Position numbers and translations under genes: made by a program. Under the pieces are notes generated by a model, which saw only the letters and a list, made by a program, of their open reading frames with translations, was not told the origin of the DNA and ran no database searches. DNA of 64,000 nucleotides from Armatimonadota bacterium (lineage in GTDB: Bacteria > Armatimonadota > Fimbriimonadia > Fimbriimonadales > Fimbriimonadaceae), in the NCBI GenBank assembly GCA_016125185.1, contig WGMG01000001.1, positions 434,001-498,000 on the forward strand, read 5' to 3'. Positions 3,004-54,853 of the stretch are shown piece after piece (position 1 is the stretch's first letter; the number at the start of each line of letters is the position of its first letter).

Positions 3004-3564
3004 TGCTTTCTCCGTTTGGCTCGCTTGGCGAGCCGGTACGCGATCATTCGGCGTCAAAAGCGTTCGCTGCGTCGGCGGAGTGGCTTCTGTAAGGTTAATG
3101 TTACCCACGGTGGTTTCGTTCCAATTTTTTGCGGTGGTTTATGGGGCGTTTGGTTCTTGGTCGGTGAAGGGCCTAGCCAGGTGCGGCGCTAAGCACCTTC
3201 CTTCGGACAAGCCTTCGGCAGGGCTTTGCCCAGGTCGTCCCGAGGCTCGGGACTCCTGGGACTTTCGAAGTTGATAGGTCTTTCCTGGGGTGCAGGCACC
3301 CCAGGCTAATCTCCGCGAACCCTCCGGGATCGGTTTGGTCGTCAGCTACACCCGGCTGCAAATCGAAAGTTGGTTTTCCCACTTAGCCGTCGTCACTTCA
3401 GGCTTTCTTGGGTGAGAGGTCCCGATTCACTTCGTTCATTTCCCTCGCAAACTCGGCGAGAATTTCGCGCCGCTCGCCGCTCCCATTAGGCCGACTGGGC
3501 CACCAAGGCCTTTTCTTGGCGGGCGAGACAACTATTCCGGCATCCTGTGTTATGATGGCTGGCG
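3004..3564. other. Long intergenic stretch with a cluster of perfect hairpins
   Basis: I see no convincing gene here. It holds a series of short exact inverted repeats: GGCTCGC/GCGAGCC (3018-3034), AGGTGC/GCACCT (3179-3198), GTCCCGAG/CTCGGGAC (3237-3253) and CCTGGGGTGC/GCACCCCAGG (3284-3305). The first belongs to the leader of the YHS lipoprotein. The others resemble REP-type elements and recur in style, not sequence, at 6628-6670. The promoter of the sigma factor should lie at the right-hand end. Confidence 0.5.
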
Positions 3565-4800
3565 GTGGATGAGCGCGAGGACATTCGGGGCCATATCGAG
3601 GCGTTGCATCGAACTCATGGGATCGTGGTGCGAGCGACGCTCATGCGGTTGTTGGGTGATTTGGATCTAGCGGACGATTGTTGCCAAGACGCGTTTGCCT
3701 CAGCGTTAGCGGTTTGGCCGGAGTCGGGCATTCCAGCCAAACCCCTGGCGTGGCTCGTCAAGGCGGGTCGGTACGCAGGCCTGAACACCTTTCGCAAGAA
3801 TCAGCGGCAGGTGGCATTACCCGCCGAAGAGCTCGTCGCGTTCGGGGATGAACCGGATATCGAGATCATCGATGACGACGCTTTGCGGTTGATATTCATG
3901 TGCTGTCATCCCTCGCTCGGAGTGGAATCACAGATCGCGCTGACTTTGCGGGAGTGTTGCGGACTCTCGACGGAAGAGATCGCCCACGCGTTTCTGTGTC
4001 CGATGCCAACCTTGGCCCAGCGCATCGTGCGAGCGAAAGCTCAGTTGAAGGCGGGCGGGCACAGCCTGGAATTGCTCAACGACGAGGTGATTTCTGAGCG
4101 TCTACCGGGTGTGCTCCATGTGCTGTACCTTACGTTCAACGAGGGCTACTATGCGAGTTCCGGCTACTCGCTGGTTCGGGCCGACCTTGCGCGTGAGGCG
4201 ATTCGACTGACTCGGCTCGTGGTTTCGTTGCTTCGAACGAGCGAAACGGTCGGTCTGCTTGCCTTGATGCTTGTTCAGGAGTCGCGTCGGTCGGCGCGGA
4301 CCAACGCGGAGGGCGACATCATTCTGTTGGACGATCAGGATCGGCGACTTTGGAATCAGGCGATGGCGCGTGAAGGAATTCTGCTCTCGGATGAGGCGGT
4401 GGGATGTTCATCGCTCGGCTCGTATGCTCTTCAGTCGGCAATTGCGGCGGTCCATGCTCGCTCGCCGGAGTCCGATTCGACGGATTGGGGGCAGATTGTC
4501 GGTTACTATGACCAATTGCAGGCGTTGGGGTATTCACCGATCGTCGAGCTGAATCGGGCGGTGGCGGTCGCGTACCATGTGGGTCCCGAGCACGGCATCG
4601 AAATCATCGAGCGGATGTTGGCAGAGGGCGAACTTGCGCATTACGGCCTCGCGTATTCGGCTTTAGGCGGTTTGAAGGAGAAACTTGGCCAGTTGGCCGA
4701 AGCGGTGTTGGCCTACGAAGTGGCTCTGGCGAAGTCGAATCAGGATTCCGAACGGAAGTGGCTTCGGGAGAAAATCGAAAATTTGCAAAAATCCTTGTAG
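3565..4800 (+). CDS. ECF42-type RNA polymerase sigma factor with C-terminal TPR extension
   Basis: This 411-residue protein has sigma region 2 (about residues 10-85, with LADDCCQDAFASAL and WLVKAGRYAGLNTFRK) and region 4 (about 115-170, with LTLRECCGLSTEEIAHAF and MPTLAQRIVRAKAQL). A long C-terminal extension of helical pairs (LNRAVAVAYHVGP, LAYSALGGLKEKLGQLAEAV) looks like TPR units. That arrangement is diagnostic of the ECF42 group, which is encoded beside DGPF/YCII proteins, as it is here (next gene). ECF42 factors are thought to be controlled through the C-terminal extension rather than by an anti-sigma factor. The GTG at 3565 is chosen because the nearby ATG frames close at once. Confidence 0.88.
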   Translation: MDEREDIRGHIEALHRTHGIVVRATLMRLLGDLDLADDCCQDAFASALAVWPESGIPAKPLAWLVKAGRYAGLNTFRKNQRQVALPAEELVAFGDEPDIEIIDDDALRLIFMCCHPSLGVESQIALTLRECCGLSTEEIAHAFLCPMPTLAQRIVRAKAQLKAGGHSLELLNDEVISERLPGVLHVLYLTFNEGYYASSGYSLVRADLAREAIRLTRLVVSLLRTSETVGLLALMLVQESRRSARTNAEGDIILLDDQDRRLWNQAMAREGILLSDEAVGCSSLGSYALQSAIAAVHARSPESDSTDWGQIVGYYDQLQALGYSPIVELNRAVAVAYHVGPEHGIEIIERMLAEGELAHYGLAYSALGGLKEKLGQLAEAVLAYEVALAKSNQDSERKWLREKIENLQKSL

Positions 4801-4878
4801 CGGGTGTCGAAAAGGGCGATGTTCGCGTGTCTAGGCTGTGTTGCTCCGGTGAGTAACGCAAAATGGAGAAAATAGATC

Positions 4879-40258: not shown

Positions 40259-40747
40259 CTAATATCCAGCTTCGAGGAGATCCCAGTATTCGTCGGCATG
40301 GTCACGGATATGCTTGGCGCACGCAACCTCGACGAGGGTGGGACCTTTTGAATTGGTGCCATTGACTTCAAAGTAGTCTATGTTGAGGTTGTCCAGGCAA
40401 GACTTATCTCCCAGCAGTTGTAGGATGCGGTCATCAATGGGTACAAGATCACTTTCCAGCCTTACCGGCTGAACACTATCTGGAAACAAATTGAGAGTTT
40501 GCTGAACGACGTCGGCTAACTGGTTCAAGCCTAGCTGTTGGAGGTGATGGATGTGTTCCCTTGCGCTGAAAATACCGTTCGAATAGTATTGGAAAAAGCC
40601 GCCGTTGCAAATCTCCCCATCGGCGTAGAGGACGAACCCAATCATGTTATCTTCGGGAATCTCACTGAAGACCCCAATCAGGTCCACATCGGATCCCGAT
40701 TCAAGGAGGCGATCCCATTCAGCTCGGCTAAGCATGGAGGAAATCAT
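40259..40747 (-). CDS. DUF4375 (DMP19-like) protein
   Basis: The 162-residue acidic protein contains the DUF4375 core: EICNGGFFQYYSNGIF at about residue 45, then LQQLGLNQLADVVQ and a Pro-rich segment. Members are cytoplasmic and often found near toxin or immunity genes, but their function is not established. I start at ATG 40747; a TTG at 40783 would add 12 residues. Composition is slightly more AT-rich than its neighbours. It converges with the GH99-like gene. Confidence 0.7.
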   Translation of the reverse strand: MISSMLSRAEWDRLLESGSDVDLIGVFSEIPEDNMIGFVLYADGEICNGGFFQYYSNGIFSAREHIHHLQQLGLNQLADVVQQTLNLFPDSVQPVRLESDLVPIDDRILQLLGDKSCLDNLNIDYFEVNGTNSKGPTLVEVACAKHIRDHADEYWDLLEAGY

Positions 40748-40800
40748 ATCCCAGCCTAACTGATCGAATTGTGAAAAAGACAAAAAGAATCGCTGGACAA

Positions 40801-42061: not shown

Positions 42062-44233
42062 CTATTTTGGCTTGTCCACTTTATTCTGAATCGCGATGCT
42101 GATCGTTATTTTTCCTGAGAATTGGTCTTGCTCTCCAAATTTGAAAGGAATGGTTGTTACGCCATAAAAACCGGTTCCTTCTTCGCCAGGTAATTGTGCG
42201 CCTGGTTTCAGAGTGATCTTAAGACCAGAATCCATGTAGCTCTTGTCAATATGACAGTTGTCCAATAGCTCTACTGGAATCTGACCTGGCTTCGAGGGCT
42301 TGCCCTTCGTCCTTTGCTCGGTGTGAGTGGCATTCAGGATTGCGTTGACAACAAAAATTCCGTTCTCATTTTCACCCTTGAGCTTTTTGATGACCATGTT
42401 GAAGTACTTGCCCTCCGGCGTACTGCTTGGGAAATCGAATTCATTGTTACCTGCATCGGTTTCATGAATCTGGAATCGATCGACAAGACAGTCAGAGTTG
42501 TCAATATAGCTCGTGCCACTATCCCGAACTGTATAACGAACGTGGCCCGGTCCCTTCAACTGGAAGTACCGATCACCACCGAGCGCCTGCTGCTGCTTGA
42601 GAAGCGCCTCCATTTGCTTGCGCTGGGCCTCAGGCAGGTTTTTGATGCCGTCAAGAACCTGCTGCGGAACCTCACCCACCGGATCATTGATGTCCATCAC
42701 CATGTCCGTAACGTCGAGGACCCGGTCGATATGCTGAGCGAGGTTTCGATCGCGACTAAAGAAGTTGCCATCGCCCTTAACGGTCACCGTGATGTGGCCA
42801 ATCGACTGAGCTTGCTTCCAATCTCGGACTCGCACATTGACGGTTTCGCTTCCAAACCACTTCATCCGGTAAAGGGTTTCCATAACCGGCGAAATCCAAC
42901 CAGACGTTCCGCCGCTAATGCCGATTGCGCCCGTCACCGCGTCGATAACGTCTTGCTTCATGTCGGTTGCTTTCGCCTGAGGGGTGACCTTGACTGAGAT
43001 AGATTTCTCATAAGCCTTCACCGTCTTGGGATCGAGGGCTTTCTGCTGGGCCGTGCCTTCCAAAATGCCCTTAGCGACACCGTTCGAGTCGGTCTTGACC
43101 TTGCTCATGTCTCCCTGTCCCGAAGCCCACTGGACCTTGTGATTGTTAAAGTCGTAATACTTACCGTCGCCGCTAATCTCCCAGGATGTTTCGATTCCAG
43201 CAAGTCCGCCGGATTTCGGCATATCCACGTCCAACCCCGCCATCGCAACCGTCGCCCGGTTCTCCTTCATCCAATCGGTGACCTTTGAACCATCAATGAA
43301 GATTCTCGCAGTCAAGGTCTTTTTCTCGCCGGCCGAGGTGTCTTTGGTCCGGACCAAAAGATTGTTCTCGCCTTCGACTTTCAACTCAGTTTTGAGGAAG
43401 GTATACGTGAGAATAAACTTGGAGATGGACGAGATCGAGTTGGCCTTGTCCATCGGCTTGGCTAGCTTTTCGCCAATCTTGGATTCCACCAGCTTGTTGA
43501 TGAGACCGGTGATGCCTCCCACCCAACCGTCTTCCGCCCAACCGGCATCGTCAGCATAAGGAGAATAATTCGAGGCGAATAGATTCAGACCCGCAGGAGA
43601 GCTCTTTTTGATCGCCGTCGCAATCTCTTGTGTGACAATGCGAGTAAGGATAAGCGACTGAATCGGGTCTAACTTGGCGCTGTCGCCAAAATTCATATCG
43701 TCGAAGTTCTCGTGGTTTTGGGCGAGATCGGTCAAAAATCCCGAGACCGCCTGATTCATATAGCGGTTGGGGTTCGGGTCGCCCGGCTTCAATACTTCTT
43801 GACGAGCTACAGGGTCATAAATCAAGAAGGACTTTATGTCCGTACCACAGCTGTCATTGTAGCCACCCTGTTTCAACTGGTAGTCCATGGACGCAACGAA
43901 GTTGCCCAGGGTCATTCCCTGACCTCGATTATATAAATCGATGAATCCGCGAATCTCGTAATCCGTGACCGCCAGATGCAGATCATTGTCGGTCCCGATC
44001 GGCTTGGCGACCAGCGTATGGTCTTCTTTTCGGATGGTGAAACCGCAAATCTGAAGGGCCTCGGTGAGGAGAGCCGGAGTGCCTTGCTTTGCCGCCAGAA
44101 GCTGAGCGATTTCCTGGAGCCGAGCGGCCGAAGCGATATCCGAAAAGAGGGCCGGAGCCGCCATCGACGATCCTGCAAGGAGTAGCAAGCCGAGGCCAAA
44201 CCCCACGCGCGAAAAAACCCGTGAAAGAATCAT
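42062..44233 (-). CDS. Large exported protein of unknown function
   Basis: A 723-residue protein with a signal peptide (FSRVGFGLGLLLLAGSSMAA). The mature protein has mixed alpha/beta regions, including a strand-rich central part (ETSWEISGDGKYYDFNNHKV, ARIFIDGSKVTDWMK) that could be Ig-like, an N-terminal helical part (LQEIAQLLAAKQGTPALLTE) and a beta-rich C-terminal domain (DSGLKITLKPGAQLPGEE). I recognise no family. The start at 44233 is preferred over a GTG at 44254. It probably shares a transcript with the aminotransferase gene 4 bases downstream. Confidence 0.7.
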   Translation of the reverse strand: MILSRVFSRVGFGLGLLLLAGSSMAAPALFSDIASAARLQEIAQLLAAKQGTPALLTEALQICGFTIRKEDHTLVAKPIGTDNDLHLAVTDYEIRGFIDLYNRGQGMTLGNFVASMDYQLKQGGYNDSCGTDIKSFLIYDPVARQEVLKPGDPNPNRYMNQAVSGFLTDLAQNHENFDDMNFGDSAKLDPIQSLILTRIVTQEIATAIKKSSPAGLNLFASNYSPYADDAGWAEDGWVGGITGLINKLVESKIGEKLAKPMDKANSISSISKFILTYTFLKTELKVEGENNLLVRTKDTSAGEKKTLTARIFIDGSKVTDWMKENRATVAMAGLDVDMPKSGGLAGIETSWEISGDGKYYDFNNHKVQWASGQGDMSKVKTDSNGVAKGILEGTAQQKALDPKTVKAYEKSISVKVTPQAKATDMKQDVIDAVTGAIGISGGTSGWISPVMETLYRMKWFGSETVNVRVRDWKQAQSIGHITVTVKGDGNFFSRDRNLAQHIDRVLDVTDMVMDINDPVGEVPQQVLDGIKNLPEAQRKQMEALLKQQQALGGDRYFQLKGPGHVRYTVRDSGTSYIDNSDCLVDRFQIHETDAGNNEFDFPSSTPEGKYFNMVIKKLKGENENGIFVVNAILNATHTEQRTKGKPSKPGQIPVELLDNCHIDKSYMDSGLKITLKPGAQLPGEEGTGFYGVTTIPFKFGEQDQFSGKITISIAIQNKVDKPK

Positions 44234-44627
44234 GAGAACTTCGGATGCTAGCACAGCGATTTTGAAAATATCAACGGAGTCCTAGGTTCTTAATGGTGGA
44301 TATTTGGGAATATTCGTTGTCGAATGAAGCGATAAGAAAGGTCTTCAGGTCAGTTAGTGCCGTCCGCATGGTCAAAAATAGCCATGCATTCCCTTCTGCA
44401 ACTGGAATGCCACAAAACGTCTTAGCAGAAGGAAAACTGAACGCAGCGGCAGGAGCAAATGGCCAGGTAAAACGCCCTGGATCAACGTATTATCTGTCTA
44501 AATCGCCAACGAAGCTAAAGGACTACCATCGAAGCCAAACTCTCGACCTACCTCTGGACCGAGTCTCAAAGAAAAGGGAAGCTCAAGATATGATGGCAAA
44601 GCGCACACATGTTTGCTGAGCATCGCG
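44234..44627. other. Noncoding gap at the left edge of an AT-rich segment
   Basis: Composition shifts from GC-rich to AT-rich here. A 108-codon open frame (44293-44619, plus) is not supported: no ribosome site, no hydrophobic or domain pattern. No terminator with a T run was found. This is a candidate boundary of the segment carrying the kinase-HD gene. No direct repeat or tRNA end was found to mark an insertion. Confidence 0.45.
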
Positions 44628-47024
44628 TCACTTAACTTGCGTGTTCAAATCGGTGCCCTTTAAAATCTGCAAAATGCCGTCACCAATATCATTTCGATGC
44701 TCAATTCTAAACGACGGCCCAAGTGCCTTTCCTACTCTCGGGCTAACGAAAAAGCGAACGCGCTTTGACAGCAACTCATAGCCTTCTTGTAAGTGACGGA
44801 TCGTTTCCGAGAGATACTCTACCTCAACCGCCTCGCCACGATCTACCCGAATATATGCCTTTCCCCCAAAATCGTTTTCCCTCCTCGGGACATCCAATAA
44901 AATGTCATCAACTCCAAAACTTTCATGTTCCTTAATATTAGCAATACAAAGTATTAAGTGCAAAAGTTTCTCTCGTACCTCCTTCTCACCTGAGTCGCTT
45001 AAGTTTCGACATTTTTCGTAAATTTCAAAATCTCTCTCCTCTCCCGCAGAAGGATGTATTGTATAAAGTCTTTGGTAAAGGTGGTTTCGATCTTCGATCA
45101 ATCCTGAAAGTACTGACGGTTTTCCAAAATGTGTCATATATTTTTGGTCTAGATATCGAATAGCTTCGTAGTCACTTCTCCACATCGTATCAGTTAAGTA
45201 TTCGTGGAAAGAGCGCCTGCCATCCGAGTAAAGGTCCTTTACTACGCTGAGAACCATGGCCATAAGTGCCCGGTTTGTATGATGCCAATACACGGAACGG
45301 AAAAGCCAATATCTCGTAAATATCACACTTTCCACGGCTTGTAACGCTCTTTCATCAAAAGCGAGATGCAGTCGACCTTGGTTGATTCGCTCGATTGACG
45401 CAGCTTTTAGAAGTGCAACAACATCAATGCCATTTCCATAGGCAACACCCGTAAACAATGAGTCCAATTTAAGATAGGACAATTTATCGATATCGACTCC
45501 TGAATTGACAATTGAATTAATAATCTGATCCACCGCATCGTGCTCGGCGCATTGTTCGTAATGCTTTCCGAAAACGATCTGCTCGAACCTCTTTGAATCC
45601 AATCCTAGATCGTCAAGGATCATATTCACCGACGCCGACTTTGCTGCCATCTCTCCAGTCGCCTGCCCATCGCAGAAAAGCTCCAAGACGTCTAGACCCT
45701 TAAGTTGTTGAATCCCACTTTCCTGAAAAATATGAAGAAACGGAAAATGATTGATATCGTGAAACAAAATACACGCTAGTAGCTGCTCTGTTGATCTGCC
45801 ATCGAAATGTAGACGAAATGTCGGACAAGAGTAGAGCTGCTCTACAAGCTGCCTTCCAAGCTCATATGCGTACAGGACATGAACTGACCGTTTATAGTCC
45901 GCCCCTGGATAAATATACGGAAGCAAGCAGAGTTGATTAACGTAATTTAGACGTCGAAAACTCCTGCATTCAATGCCCCGTTTGAGATTTTCGGTAACTG
46001 GCACCGCAATGCCGGTAGGTAGCATTATAGTCTTCTCGGCTGCAGAGGGGCTTATGAGTTCTTGAATGCCAAATGTTGTAAAGTGATTTGGCCTGAGCCT
46101 CTCAATCCTCGGCAGAAGGGAAGTGGTCGATAATTTGCTGACCAACTTCCAATCTGTTAATGTATGTATTAGCTCACCAATGTAATTGTTTTCGCGTATA
46201 CGAAATGTCTTCTTTAGCGTGGGGGCAAGTTCGGCTAATAATTTTCCAAATTGGTAAAGATCGAGACCAGGGAAGATGGCCTGAAAAAGCTCTTCACGGG
46301 TCCCGCCTACTTCTTTGATGTGCTTGAGTCTATGATTTGTGGATATGGACTTTGGAAATAAATCCCAATCGCCAAGCAATCTTGTCATTTCGTTTTTATC
46401 AACTTCTTCAAAGTCGAAATTCTTGCTAAGGCCGAAGTCCACAAGAATGGGCTGACTGTCAGATGATCTTATTAGTAGGTTGGCTGCTTTGATATCTAGG
46501 TGCATCCGTTTGCGCACGTTATGCATATATTGAAGCGCCTCAGCGATAGAGACTAGAATATTTGCGCAGTCTTCGTCGCCCAGCTTATTTTGTGCGAAAT
46601 ATTCATTGATTGGCAGTCCTTCAACGAAATCAGTAACCAGTGCGGGCAACTTCGATATAGCTGAAGCTTGAATTTTCTTCTTCTGCTTTTGGGTGAGATC
46701 GATTTCTCCCTTTTCTCGAACTGCGACGATGTTTTTATGATGCAGGCTTGATAGAATTTCAAATTCTCGAAGTTGAAAAGGTATAGTTTCGTTTACCGCT
46801 TCGTCGGCTATCGTTGTAAACAATTTTGCCTGGTAGAAGGGAAAGAATATTTTCAAGGCATAACTCTGCTCGTTATGCGTGACTTTGTAGACTTCTCCTG
46901 ACCCACCTCGGTTTATATATTCAATGACTTTATATGAAATATTGTTCAGGCGTACGGAATCGCCCTGATTGAATATTTGTCCTTCTTGAACTGTGGAATT
47001 AAGTTGCACGATACTATTATGCAC
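44628..47024 (-). CDS. Ser/Thr protein kinase fused to a SAMHD1-like HD phosphohydrolase
   Basis: A 798-residue frame. The N-terminal kinase domain (about 30-310) is complete: Gly loop GGSGEVYKV (40-48), K58, catalytic loop HLDIKAANLL (H175, D177, K179), DFG 196-198, and a DLYQFG helix (255-260). Residues 330-540 resemble SAMHD1/dGTPase HD domains: RRLNYVNQLCLLPYIYPGAD, H382, FHDINHFPFLH (H422, D423), and VDIDKLSYLKLDSLFTG with D521, matching the four metal ligands H...HD...D. The last 230 residues are helical and unassigned. I infer a phosphorylation-controlled dNTPase or related phosphohydrolase. Composition is clearly AT-richer than its neighbours. The start is a GTG with no visible Shine-Dalgarno sequence. 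Confidence 0.85.
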   Translation of the reverse strand: MHNSIVQLNSTVQEGQIFNQGDSVRLNNISYKVIEYINRGGSGEVYKVTHNEQSYALKIFFPFYQAKLFTTIADEAVNETIPFQLREFEILSSLHHKNIVAVREKGEIDLTQKQKKKIQASAISKLPALVTDFVEGLPINEYFAQNKLGDEDCANILVSIAEALQYMHNVRKRMHLDIKAANLLIRSSDSQPILVDFGLSKNFDFEEVDKNEMTRLLGDWDLFPKSISTNHRLKHIKEVGGTREELFQAIFPGLDLYQFGKLLAELAPTLKKTFRIRENNYIGELIHTLTDWKLVSKLSTTSLLPRIERLRPNHFTTFGIQELISPSAAEKTIMLPTGIAVPVTENLKRGIECRSFRRLNYVNQLCLLPYIYPGADYKRSVHVLYAYELGRQLVEQLYSCPTFRLHFDGRSTEQLLACILFHDINHFPFLHIFQESGIQQLKGLDVLELFCDGQATGEMAAKSASVNMILDDLGLDSKRFEQIVFGKHYEQCAEHDAVDQIINSIVNSGVDIDKLSYLKLDSLFTGVAYGNGIDVVALLKAASIERINQGRLHLAFDERALQAVESVIFTRYWLFRSVYWHHTNRALMAMVLSVVKDLYSDGRRSFHEYLTDTMWRSDYEAIRYLDQKYMTHFGKPSVLSGLIEDRNHLYQRLYTIHPSAGEERDFEIYEKCRNLSDSGEKEVREKLLHLILCIANIKEHESFGVDDILLDVPRRENDFGGKAYIRVDRGEAVEVEYLSETIRHLQEGYELLSKRVRFFVSPRVGKALGPSFRIEHRNDIGDGILQILKGTDLNTQVK

Positions 47025-47528
47025 TTAATGCAGCGAATTTGCGACGACTCGAAATTTGGTTTTTACCGTTGATAGGTGTCGCGACGCAGGCTATGGTCGC
47101 GTTATTGCCTTAATATTTGTTCGGGTCTATTGAAGTGGTCTATGTTAAGGTAAAGCATCTAAGGTTGGCTCTAGTGGCATTCTCTGTATTTCGCCGAGTC
47201 TGGGTAGTCACCGGAGCGCTTAGGTTTGTATGTCGTTGGGCGATTTGCTGCTTGTATTTGGTATCTCTGTTCGGTGTTGGAGTTCGTTGCCTTTTTTTTT
47301 GTTGCTCCTACCTGAGTATGTTGTTTGTAGGTTGGGCAGGTGCTGAGCTTTGAATTACAGGGTCTTTGGCATGATCTCCCTAGAGTGTGTATGCAGGAAG
47401 GAAGATTTCATCGTGAGACCGTTGCCTTACAGATTCTGGACGTTGTTTGGTAACTGTTGGCTTGGCGCGGATAGTGGTCTTCCGAAGAATGACAAACTGT
47501 ACGAACTAGGTAAGGTGAAAACAGTGCA
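47025..47528. other. Noncoding G+T-skewed stretch at the right edge of the AT-rich segment
   Basis: Between about 47100 and 47480 the plus strand is strikingly rich in T and G with very few A or C, including a run of nine T (47292-47300). Two open frames (47117-47353 and 47350-47532) encode Cys/Val/Phe-rich strings that follow from this skew and are not believable proteins. It may hold the promoter of the kinase-HD gene (left end), a structured RNA, or decayed mobile DNA. The esterase promoter should lie near 47490-47520. Confidence 0.4.
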
Positions 47529-48539
47529 ATGAAGCGTTTTCTTCCCTACATCGTCACGGGGGCGCTGTCGGCCACGGCGGCTCTTTCGATTTCCTACTAT
47601 CAGCAGAAACCCAACCCGGATTCGCAGTATCGACCTAATCCCGACGCGCTGGTTCACGATGGGGTTCCGAAAGGCGAAGTACGTGGCCCATTCGTGGTCC
47701 AGAGCCTCGGCTACCCGGGAACGCAGAAGACGTATTGGGTGTACGTGCCCGCACAATACGACCCCAAGGTTCCGACCGCGCTGATGGTGCTTCAGGATGG
47801 TCAAGCAATGAAGCAGGAAAACGGACAGATTCGAGCCCAAACGGTGTTCGACAACCTCATCTATCGACGTGAAATTCCCGTCATGATCGGCGTGTTCATC
47901 AACCCTGGACGAACGCCTGAGCAAAAGGAACCATCACCCGAAAACGGCTGGGGAGACGGATTCACCAACCGGGGTGTCGAGTACAACGCGCTCGACGACA
48001 AGTACGCGCGCGACATCGTCGATGGGCTGATTCCTCAGCTAAAGAAGGATTACAACATCTCCGACGACCCGAATATGCGCGGAATCGGCGGCTCAAGCTC
48101 GGGCGCGATTGCCGCCTTCACGGTGGCGTGGGAACGACCGAACGCCTTCCGCAAAGTCCTTAGCATTGTGGGAAGCTTCACCAACATTCGCGGTGGCGAC
48201 GCCTATCCCGATATCATCCGCAAGAGCAAGAAGAAGCCGATTCGCGTGTTCCTCTGCGACGGTCGGAACGACCTCCGCGGGGTCCGCAACGGCAAATACG
48301 ATCCTCGCTGGGATTGGTTCTTGCAGAACAACCGCATGAAGGACGCGCTGACGGAGAAGGGGTACGACCTGAACTATACGTGGGGCATGAACAACCATGG
48401 CCAAGCGTTCGGCGGGCAAATCTTCCCCGACATGATGCGTTGGCTATGGCGCGACGGACCGGTCTCCACCGACCCGAACGACATGGTCGAGCGGAGCTTC
48501 CGAGGGGCCGCTGCTGGATTGGATAAGGAAGGTAACTAG
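47529..48539 (+). CDS. Secreted alpha/beta-hydrolase esterase (Fes/esterase D type)
   Basis: The 336-residue protein has a short signal or anchor ([20 protein letters not shown]). The alpha/beta hydrolase core has [21 protein letters not shown], the nucleophile elbow [13 protein letters not shown] (first Ser of SSS in G-x-S-x-G), an Asp in [12 protein letters not shown], and a catalytic His in [11 protein letters not shown]. This is the putative-esterase/enterochelin-esterase group. The substrate is unknown. A gene for a small unknown protein follows within 20 bases. Confidence 0.88.
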
Positions 48540-53011: not shown

Positions 53012-54853
53012 TCAAGCCAACTGATAGTCGATCGATTGGAGCTTTCGGTACTCGTTCCAGTTGAGGATCACCCGTCCGCCCTGTCGCGGGTCGATCGACT
53101 GGAGGCCGACCCCCTGCTGGATCCATCCCATATGGACAAATTGCTCGGGGTAGGTCGAAGCCATGCCGAGGAAACGGCCCTCCGGCTTCACTTCGCCGAC
53201 CACCCAGCCTTCGCCGAGCATGGCTTCCAGCACTTCGATCCCTCGCCGGACCGTCCCTTCAGGGTCGAGCCGCAGACCTCGCTTGACCGCCTCAAAGGCG
53301 TAGCGCTCAAGCAGAAGCTCAAGATCGGACTCGACCTGGAGAGCCGCATACATGGCACCGTAGGAGAGCATATCGGGCAAGACCAGCGAGCCGCGCTTGA
53401 GACACGGAATCTTATAAACACGTCCCTCTTGGTAGGTCGCGAGAATAATCTTCTCGGCTCCCTCGGTGTTCAGTCGGAACGAGTTATACTTCTCGACTTC
53501 CCACTTGGGGTAGCTTCCCGTCATCGAGCGAATGTTGTACTTGACGGCCGAGATGGTGAAGGTCCCGGTCCCCGGCACGCCGAGGCTATCGCCCGCAAAA
53601 CCGCCTGAGCCCATCCACACGAAGGCGTCTTCCGGCCGAAGCTGAATTCCGGCCGAGTCGGCAATTACGGCGCAGTACTCCTTCAACTCAGTGAAGTGGC
53701 CGTTCATCGAGTACCAATAATCGGCAAAGCGGATATGATCGCGGATTCGTCGCGACTGGACGTCGCTGTAGGATTGCTTGAGCCAATTCGCGTCAAGTTC
53801 GCCGCGCTCGATCTCCAAAATAGTGTAGGCGAGGTTTCGGGCTCCGGTCTGCGCGAGGGTCAATCCCGCCGAGAGGATCGGGTCGGCAAAGCCAGCCGCA
53901 TCGCCGGCTAGGAACCAGTTTTCGCCGTACAAACGCTCAGAAACAAAGCTCCAGTCCTTGGTGGTTTCAAACTTGCCCTCGCGAGACGCGTTGGCCACCA
54001 GTTTCGATACCGTTGGTTCGGAGGTCAGGGCCTCCATGTACAGCTCTTCCGGGGTCTTGCCGCTCTTCTTCTGATATTCGGCTGGCATGACCAAGCCGAT
54101 CGAAGTCCGCGTCGGACCGAGAGGAATGAACCAAATCCAACCCCAATCTAGGCTGAGGACCAAAATCTGCGTACCGCCGATTCCAATGCGTGTGGCCCAT
54201 TCAGTGTTCTGCCAGTAGTCCCACGCGGCGATATTGCGGAGCTCGGTCGGTGCGTCGATTTCGACTCCCATTTTTCGGCGCAGAAGTCCCGAATTCCCCG
54301 AGGCATCCACATACCACTTGGCTTGCACGAGGCTCTCGCCGTTTAGTGGTGTCCGCCGGTCATCCGACCCTTCCACCAATTCGAGCCCGTTGATCCGATC
54401 GCCTTCGTGGAGAATATTGACGACGCGGACTCCTTCGTAAACCTGACATCCGGCCTCCCGGGCGTGATCGAGCAGGATTTTGTCGTACTTGGACCGATCA
54501 ACCTGGAAAGCGGTTTGGGCGCGTTGGCCGGTGTATTGAGCCGGGCGGGGAATGTCTTGGAAGCTATCGACCTTCAAGAAGTCGAGCGCCCAAAGGTCCT
54601 TGGAACTTCCCCAGCGGTACAACCCACCGATCTTCACCGGAAAATCCGCGGCTTCGACCTTGTCCCAAACACCCATTTCGTCCAGAACAGGCATTAGGTG
54701 AGGGAGTTGGCTTTCGCCGATGTGGTCGCGCGGAAACACCTCACGCTCAAACAGCGCTATCGAGAGATTAGGATCATACTTCCGAAGAAGTGTGCCGAGG
54801 GTACTTGCCGCTGGACCCCCACCAATAATCGCCACGTCGCACGAGATGGCCAT
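53012..54853 (-). CDS. Flavin-dependent halogenase-like FAD oxidoreductase
   Basis: The 613-residue protein has an N-terminal FAD fold (GGGPAAS, residues 11-17), catalytic-type Lys in DFPVKIGGLYRWG (K74), the halogenase signature W-x-W-x-I-P as WIWFIP (239-244), and F-x-x-P-x-x-S-x-G as FADPILSAG (322-330) after GDAAG. These are the motifs that separate FAD halogenases from ordinary monooxygenases. A C-terminal region of about 240 residues is longer than in tryptophan halogenases and may bind a carrier protein or another substrate. No biosynthetic cluster surrounds it, and a geranylgeranyl-reductase-like role cannot be excluded. Confidence 0.8.
   Translation of the reverse strand: MAISCDVAIIGGGPAASTLGTLLRKYDPNLSIALFEREVFPRDHIGESQLPHLMPVLDEMGVWDKVEAADFPVKIGGLYRWGSSKDLWALDFLKVDSFQDIPRPAQYTGQRAQTAFQVDRSKYDKILLDHAREAGCQVYEGVRVVNILHEGDRINGLELVEGSDDRRTPLNGESLVQAKWYVDASGNSGLLRRKMGVEIDAPTELRNIAAWDYWQNTEWATRIGIGGTQILVLSLDWGWIWFIPLGPTRTSIGLVMPAEYQKKSGKTPEELYMEALTSEPTVSKLVANASREGKFETTKDWSFVSERLYGENWFLAGDAAGFADPILSAGLTLAQTGARNLAYTILEIERGELDANWLKQSYSDVQSRRIRDHIRFADYWYSMNGHFTELKEYCAVIADSAGIQLRPEDAFVWMGSGGFAGDSLGVPGTGTFTISAVKYNIRSMTGSYPKWEVEKYNSFRLNTEGAEKIILATYQEGRVYKIPCLKRGSLVLPDMLSYGAMYAALQVESDLELLLERYAFEAVKRGLRLDPEGTVRRGIEVLEAMLGEGWVVGEVKPEGRFLGMASTYPEQFVHMGWIQQGVGLQSIDPRQGGRVILNWNEYRKLQSIDYQLA

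Follow-up and report, generated by a model that had tools for sequence, protein, structure and literature searches.

A Hanks-type kinase joined in one chain to a SAMHD1-like HD domain: a patchily distributed bacterial gene family with a possible role in phage defence

Human SAMHD1 and bacterial dGTPases have an antiviral strategy in common, the depletion of dNTPs, and the former is controlled through phosphorylation by separate kinases. The protein described here shares with SAMHD1 and with the EF1143-type dNTPases (2o6i, 3irh, 4lrl) an HD core and C-terminal fold, the metal ligands, the general acid histidine and the substrate contacts, but unlike either it has an N-terminal kinase, and no SAM domain is present among its Pfam matches. 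Clover provides an example of a bacterial HD dGTPase that can act as an anti-phage effector (PMC12265719). Compared by description, its CloA resembles the fusion in that a dNTP-hydrolysing protein of the HD superfamily is the proposed effector, but the regulators of CloA are dTTP and p3diT, a product of CloB, and no kinase appears in the text of that paper (PMC12265719). Hanks-type kinase domains are found in MAD6 of the MADS system, in PD-T4-6 and in PglW of BREX, as in the fusion, although the similarity of the fusion to these three stops at the kinase domain. Nucleotide-depleting HD enzymes and defence kinases are each known, and the new element is their union in one chain. An earlier note on this DNA knew of no described system with this order, and we likewise found no published description of the fusion or its relatives in the open-licence literature, which is weak evidence; the terms SAMHD1, dNTP and phosphohydrolase do not occur in the text of a 2026 survey of BREX components (PMC12839542).

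The window analysed is a 64,000-nucleotide stretch of an Armatimonadota contig (WGMG01000001.1), and it carries the only copy of the fusion in its genome (Table 1). The gene is a single open reading frame, with an alternative GTG start at codon 6, and the proposal that one protein joins a Ser/Thr kinase to a SAMHD1-like HD domain is borne out by Pfam matches and by sequence and fold matches in the PDB.

Table 1. Coordinates of the fusion gene, its domains and the surrounding tract in the window.
Feature	Position	Strand	Basis
Kinase-HD fusion gene	44628..47024	-	798-aa ORF, start GTG; six further genomes with a homologous fusion
Ser/Thr kinase domain, residues 31 to ~310	46095..46934	-	Pfam, conservation, predicted fold; K58, E87, H175-x-D177-x-K179, N182, DFG 196-198
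SAMHD1-like HD catalytic core, residues ~327-600	45225..46046	-	PDB sequence and fold matches, residue table
C-terminal SAMHD1/EF1143-type region, residues ~601-798	44631..45224	-	Pfam HD_assoc_2; VIA-align coverage to residue 798
AT-rich tract around the fusion gene, approximate edges	44200..47500	.	sliding GC, GC and GC3

The kinase half matches Pfam Pkinase over residues 31-207 (9.6e-18, above the Pfam cut-off), and K58, E87, H175, D177, K179, N182, D196 and G198 are all present in the window copy and invariant across the seven fusion homologues. When its residues are folded separately a complete Hanks-type fold is predicted (pLDDT 81.7, pTM 0.81), which matches Hanks-type kinases such as GAK and PknB along its length. 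The complete Ser/Thr kinase that had been read from K58, H175, D177 and the DFG at 196-198 is thus confirmed by domain match, invariance and predicted bilobal fold, and we place this half among the Hanks-type Ser/Thr kinases. The best PADLOC matches are the defence kinases mad6 and PD-T4-6. The protein is not a MAD6, scoring 46.4 bits against a curated cut-off of 460 bits (NCBIfam NF047741), and the similarity to PD-T4-6 (best 7.5e-21) is confined to the kinase part, at residues 28-220.

Among PDB sequences the second half matches BT4208 (2q14; 1.6e-16), EF1143 (2o6i; 2.5e-13), 2hek and SAMHD1 (4.3e-7). It also matches Pfam HD_assoc_2 at residues 553-747 (6.1e-7, above the cut-off), and the match to the Pfam HD model itself lies below the cut-off of that model. 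With the predicted structure of the fusion as query (62 alignment rows, mean pLDDT 82.8), the top Foldseek ranks are EF1143 with dGTP/dTTP and SAMHD1, and VIA-align of residues 326-798 gives Z scores of 33.2 to EF1143 (3irh) and 29.5 to SAMHD1 (4bzc). The comparison with SAMHD1 that the earlier note had called for therefore places residues 330-560 in the SAMHD1/EF1143 family and not in an unrelated one, and the HD-core fold, the H..HD..D tetrad and the general acid histidine of that family are all present.

Active-site residues were assigned by profile alignment to SAMHD1 (5ao1) and EF1143 (2o6i). H431, the counterpart of the SAMHD1 general acid H215, is invariant in the seven fusions, and the counterparts of Q149, L150, R164, K312, Y315, D319, R366 and Y374, which contact the deoxynucleotide substrate in SAMHD1, do not vary in any fusion that extends over them. 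The metal ligands of the window copy are H382, H422, D423 and D513, the last within the motif VDIDK and with an EF1143 counterpart that we take to be D183. The tetrad is conserved throughout the seven fusions. All four ligands had been predicted and three of them named correctly, but the fourth had been put at D521, which aligns with SAMHD1 D319 and not with D311. In SAMHD1 the corresponding HD metal motif is H167, H206, D207 and D311 (PMC7045340).

There are departures from SAMHD1 at two further places. At the position of D218, which is D or E in the six relatives, the window copy has Q434, and at that of H233, which is H in all six, it has G443. SAMHD1 H233 binds an active-site magnesium and a D218A change lowers kcat about 40-fold (PMC7311409). 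There is no histidine near G443 in the window copy, and a local frameshift was rejected as the source of the missing residue, as the two other frames over residues 415-475 carry stops and restore no histidine. Judged from sequence, the loss of these counterparts lowers the claim of activity for the window copy and not that of its descent. With two catalytic residues gone, it is doubtful that this copy depletes dNTPs; it probably hydrolyses them less well than its relatives do, and we predict a protein that hydrolyses weakly, binds nucleotides or is in decay. The six relatives, by the same residues, look fully equipped for catalysis. The second departure concerns D137 and R145, the GTP allosteric site of SAMHD1, which are replaced by E352 and N360 in the window copy and are unconserved in most fusions, so that SAMHD1-style GTP activation is not expected in general. 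With neither this site nor a Pfam match to a SAM domain the window copy is not SAMHD1 proper, and the missing GTP site would leave room for other control, conceivably by the kinase.

The composition of the gene is foreign to its genome. Its GC content is 0.428, compared with a mean of 0.577 (sd 0.019, minimum 0.511) in non-overlapping windows of equal length elsewhere, and its GC3 is 0.42, compared with a median of 0.70 for the window ORFs of at least 250 aa. The G+C counts from which AT-richness had been suspected (26 in the line at 46861, 40 in that at 48061) are exact, and the departure is far beyond chance. The AT-rich tract is consistent with an acquired segment, and the gene looks horizontally acquired. 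It is absent from all 19 congeners, and vertical inheritance with normal composition, an outcome that the earlier note had set against its own proposal, is not what we observe. Similar differences between the fusion gene and its surrounding locus are seen in genome G023 (0.48 vs 0.60), at locus L032 of genome G291 (0.53 vs 0.60) and in G749 (0.58 vs 0.66); the gene is slightly below its locus in G1642 and G1273 and equal to it in G235. No tRNA and no convincing flanking repeats were found at the window gene, and promoter and terminator matches around it are no better than chance. Close relatives of the esterase next to the gene (47529) occur in most congeners; no clean empty site was found at their esterase loci, where the gene order is shuffled.

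Several other genes of the window are recorded here in their own right. A 730-aa protein (42062-44254, reverse strand) begins with a signal-like segment, reaches the cut-off of no Pfam family and has a lower GC3 (0.62), and diverged relatives of it are present in three of the 19 congeners, with several copies in one. A DMP19-like protein (Pfam PF14300, 5.2e-10) is encoded at 40259-40783 and an FAD-dependent tryptophan-halogenase-like enzyme (Pfam, 1.2e-29) at 53015-54853, both on the reverse strand; a homologue of the latter is found near the esterase orthologue in G009, the closest congener examined.

A search for the same fusion in about 1,850 genomes, drawn as five phylum-level samples, identified six besides the window copy, in G023, G235, G291 (L032), G749, G1273 and G1642. 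G023 is the one other member of the taxonomic family with a fusion, at 31% identity, and together with the window copy and G235 it accounts for the three found among 291 genomes scanned in this phylum (an Armatimonadetes record, L043, is the same contig as G235). The fusions of G749, G1273 and G1642 are in single genomes of three other draws, which were centred on loci titled Sandaracinaceae, Proteobacteria and Acidobacteria; these phylum names are uncertain, and the HD proteins of the Proteobacteria-titled draw fall with Thermomicrobium ones in the HD tree. In the draw around G291 two candidates were scored per genome and the list was crowded by kinases, such that fusions may be undercounted there. 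Collections of phages, plasmids and IMG/VR contigs yielded no fusion; IMG/VR has HD-only or kinase-only relatives, and the phage and plasmid records give partial matches only, the best of them to the HD part. Three IMG/VR viral contigs (L112, L113, L114) carry HD-only relatives of the SAMHD1-like part, and in G900 two SAMHD1-like HD genes lie in same-strand tandem (L219:1607-2992 and 3080-4375).

A maximum-likelihood tree built on 70 HD domains places the seven fusions in a single supported clade (96/90), which they share with a kinase-less subfamily, and the fusion label requires two changes on the tree compared with 6.8 in shuffles (0/500). The window copy has the longest fusion branch (2.03), and the joining of the long branches of the window and G023 copies was flagged by the program as possibly unsafe. 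The fusions of G235, G1642 and G749, from different phylum draws, group together, which points to horizontal transfer. Kinase-less HD relatives are common and the fusion itself is patchy over distant bacteria.

The neighbourhoods of the fusion genes differ. In G235 the fusion is in line between pglZ (upstream, with a gap of about 50 bp) and a PglXI/N6_N4 methyltransferase gene (downstream, gap about 10 bp), followed in the same gene run by AbiEi-like and AbiEii-like genes and by BrxL with a Lon domain. PADLOC matches are strong for BrxL (1.5e-167) and PglX (1.3e-79) and weak for PglZ, which is above the cut-off in Pfam, and the locus (L030:9729-20000 and L031, contig 160), which lies at the end of its contig, is BREX-like but of atypical make-up. 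Upstream of pglZ, a 276-aa fragment truncated where the contig stops has no family match. Departing from BREX, the genomes of the window, G023, G291, G749 and G1273 have no detectable PglZ; with PglZ detected in only one of six fusion genomes, BREX was rejected as an obligate partner, and the position inside a BREX locus holds for the G235 homologue only and not for the window copy. In G1273 a SIR2 protein (PADLOC PDC-S25, 3.4e-138) is encoded about 4.4 kb upstream of the fusion, and in G749 there is an HNH endonuclease upstream with PDC-S11 (4e-12) and PDC-S27 (7.5e-217) genes downstream, the PADLOC-type genes of both genomes being within 10 kb. We note that the G1273 homologue (L221:8265-10964), at the same locus as the SIR2 gene, contains one in-frame stop. 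Setting aside G1642, whose contig is too short to be read, defence-type neighbours accompany three of the five remaining fusions outside the window, a small sample that is suggestive of a link to defence.

The window and G023 copies are isolated, with ordinary genes around them. None of the three flanking genes tested at the window copy has a PADLOC match, and the G023 fusion presumably lies between topA and recG with a short rhodanese-like gene. At L032 the gene after the fusion (3416-4864) encodes a 483-aa protein with a marginal match (0.03) to nucleoside 2-deoxyribosyltransferases, and it is possible that this is a second nucleotide-acting partner. As a control, the only PADLOC matches among 36 neighbouring ORFs at four kinase-less HD sister loci were RtcR-like and cyclase-type, and in this small set the neighbours look ordinary. 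The anti-phage role suggested in the earlier note gains indirect support from the BREX-like locus of G235 and the PADLOC-type genes near two more fusions, but none from the three window flanks or from a window genome without detectable PglZ.

The account that we prefer, with slightly more doubt than belief, is that the gene encodes a mobile, accessory, single-chain dNTPase regulated by its own kinase and having an anti-phage role. Phage infection, or a partner complex such as BREX that senses foreign DNA, would switch the kinase on; the kinase would then switch the HD domain, by autophosphorylation or by a conformational change, and the switched domain would destroy dNTPs and so stop phage DNA replication. 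In favour of this account are the fold match, the invariant kinase set, metal site and substrate contacts, the single clade spread over five draws, the foreign composition, the defence neighbours of three members and the precedent of Clover; the hydrolysis, its control by the kinase, the trigger and the protection from phage are inferred. Against it are the isolation of the window and G023 copies from defence genes, Q434 and G443, the scarcity of PglZ and the small sample. The stronger proposal, that these proteins constitute a new mobile anti-phage family with a kinase and a gated dNTPase effector in one chain, acting alone or as a BREX plug-in and forming a bacterial counterpart of the phosphorylation-regulated SAMHD1, is distinctly more doubtful. 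In the main rival the kinase is the effector, and the SAMHD1-like HD domain senses dNTPs, whose pools shift on infection, and releases the kinase to phosphorylate host or phage proteins. The changes at the active site of the window copy speak for it, since the ligand contacts are kept where two catalytic residues are not. In addition, none of the seven members has lost a kinase residue, the best PADLOC matches of the kinase half are defence kinases, and a kinase-kinase-phosphatase module (KKP) is described as a phage defence (PMC11341870). Sensing alone would not require the catalytic residues that six relatives keep together with the binding ones, and we consider this explanation unlikely.

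Another reading, which we find improbable, makes the window copy what is left of a mobile defence gene, now decaying or inactive. The two substitutions of the copy, its long branch and its isolation would all be accommodated, as would the in-frame stop of the G1273 relative, but the window frame runs through 798 codons without a stop and every kinase and metal-site residue is retained. A horizontally transferred enzyme of dNTP homeostasis or signalling, with no part in defence, would fit the abundance of kinase-less HD relatives, the ordinary-looking neighbours at four of them and the settings of the window and G023 copies, and one bacterial dNTP triphosphohydrolase is known to act in the cell cycle (PMC12186491). 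The very patchy distribution, the foreign composition and the in-line position in a BREX-like operon argue against such an enzyme, which seems quite improbable.

If the kinase-regulated dNTPase that we prefer is correct, the fusion would be an example of a module for nucleotide depletion that can be part of a BREX-like system. With seven members, of which all but the window copy have the fuller catalytic set, the family is a compact one for bench tests, and a natural single chain of this kind would make it directly testable whether phosphorylation control of dNTPases arose more than once.
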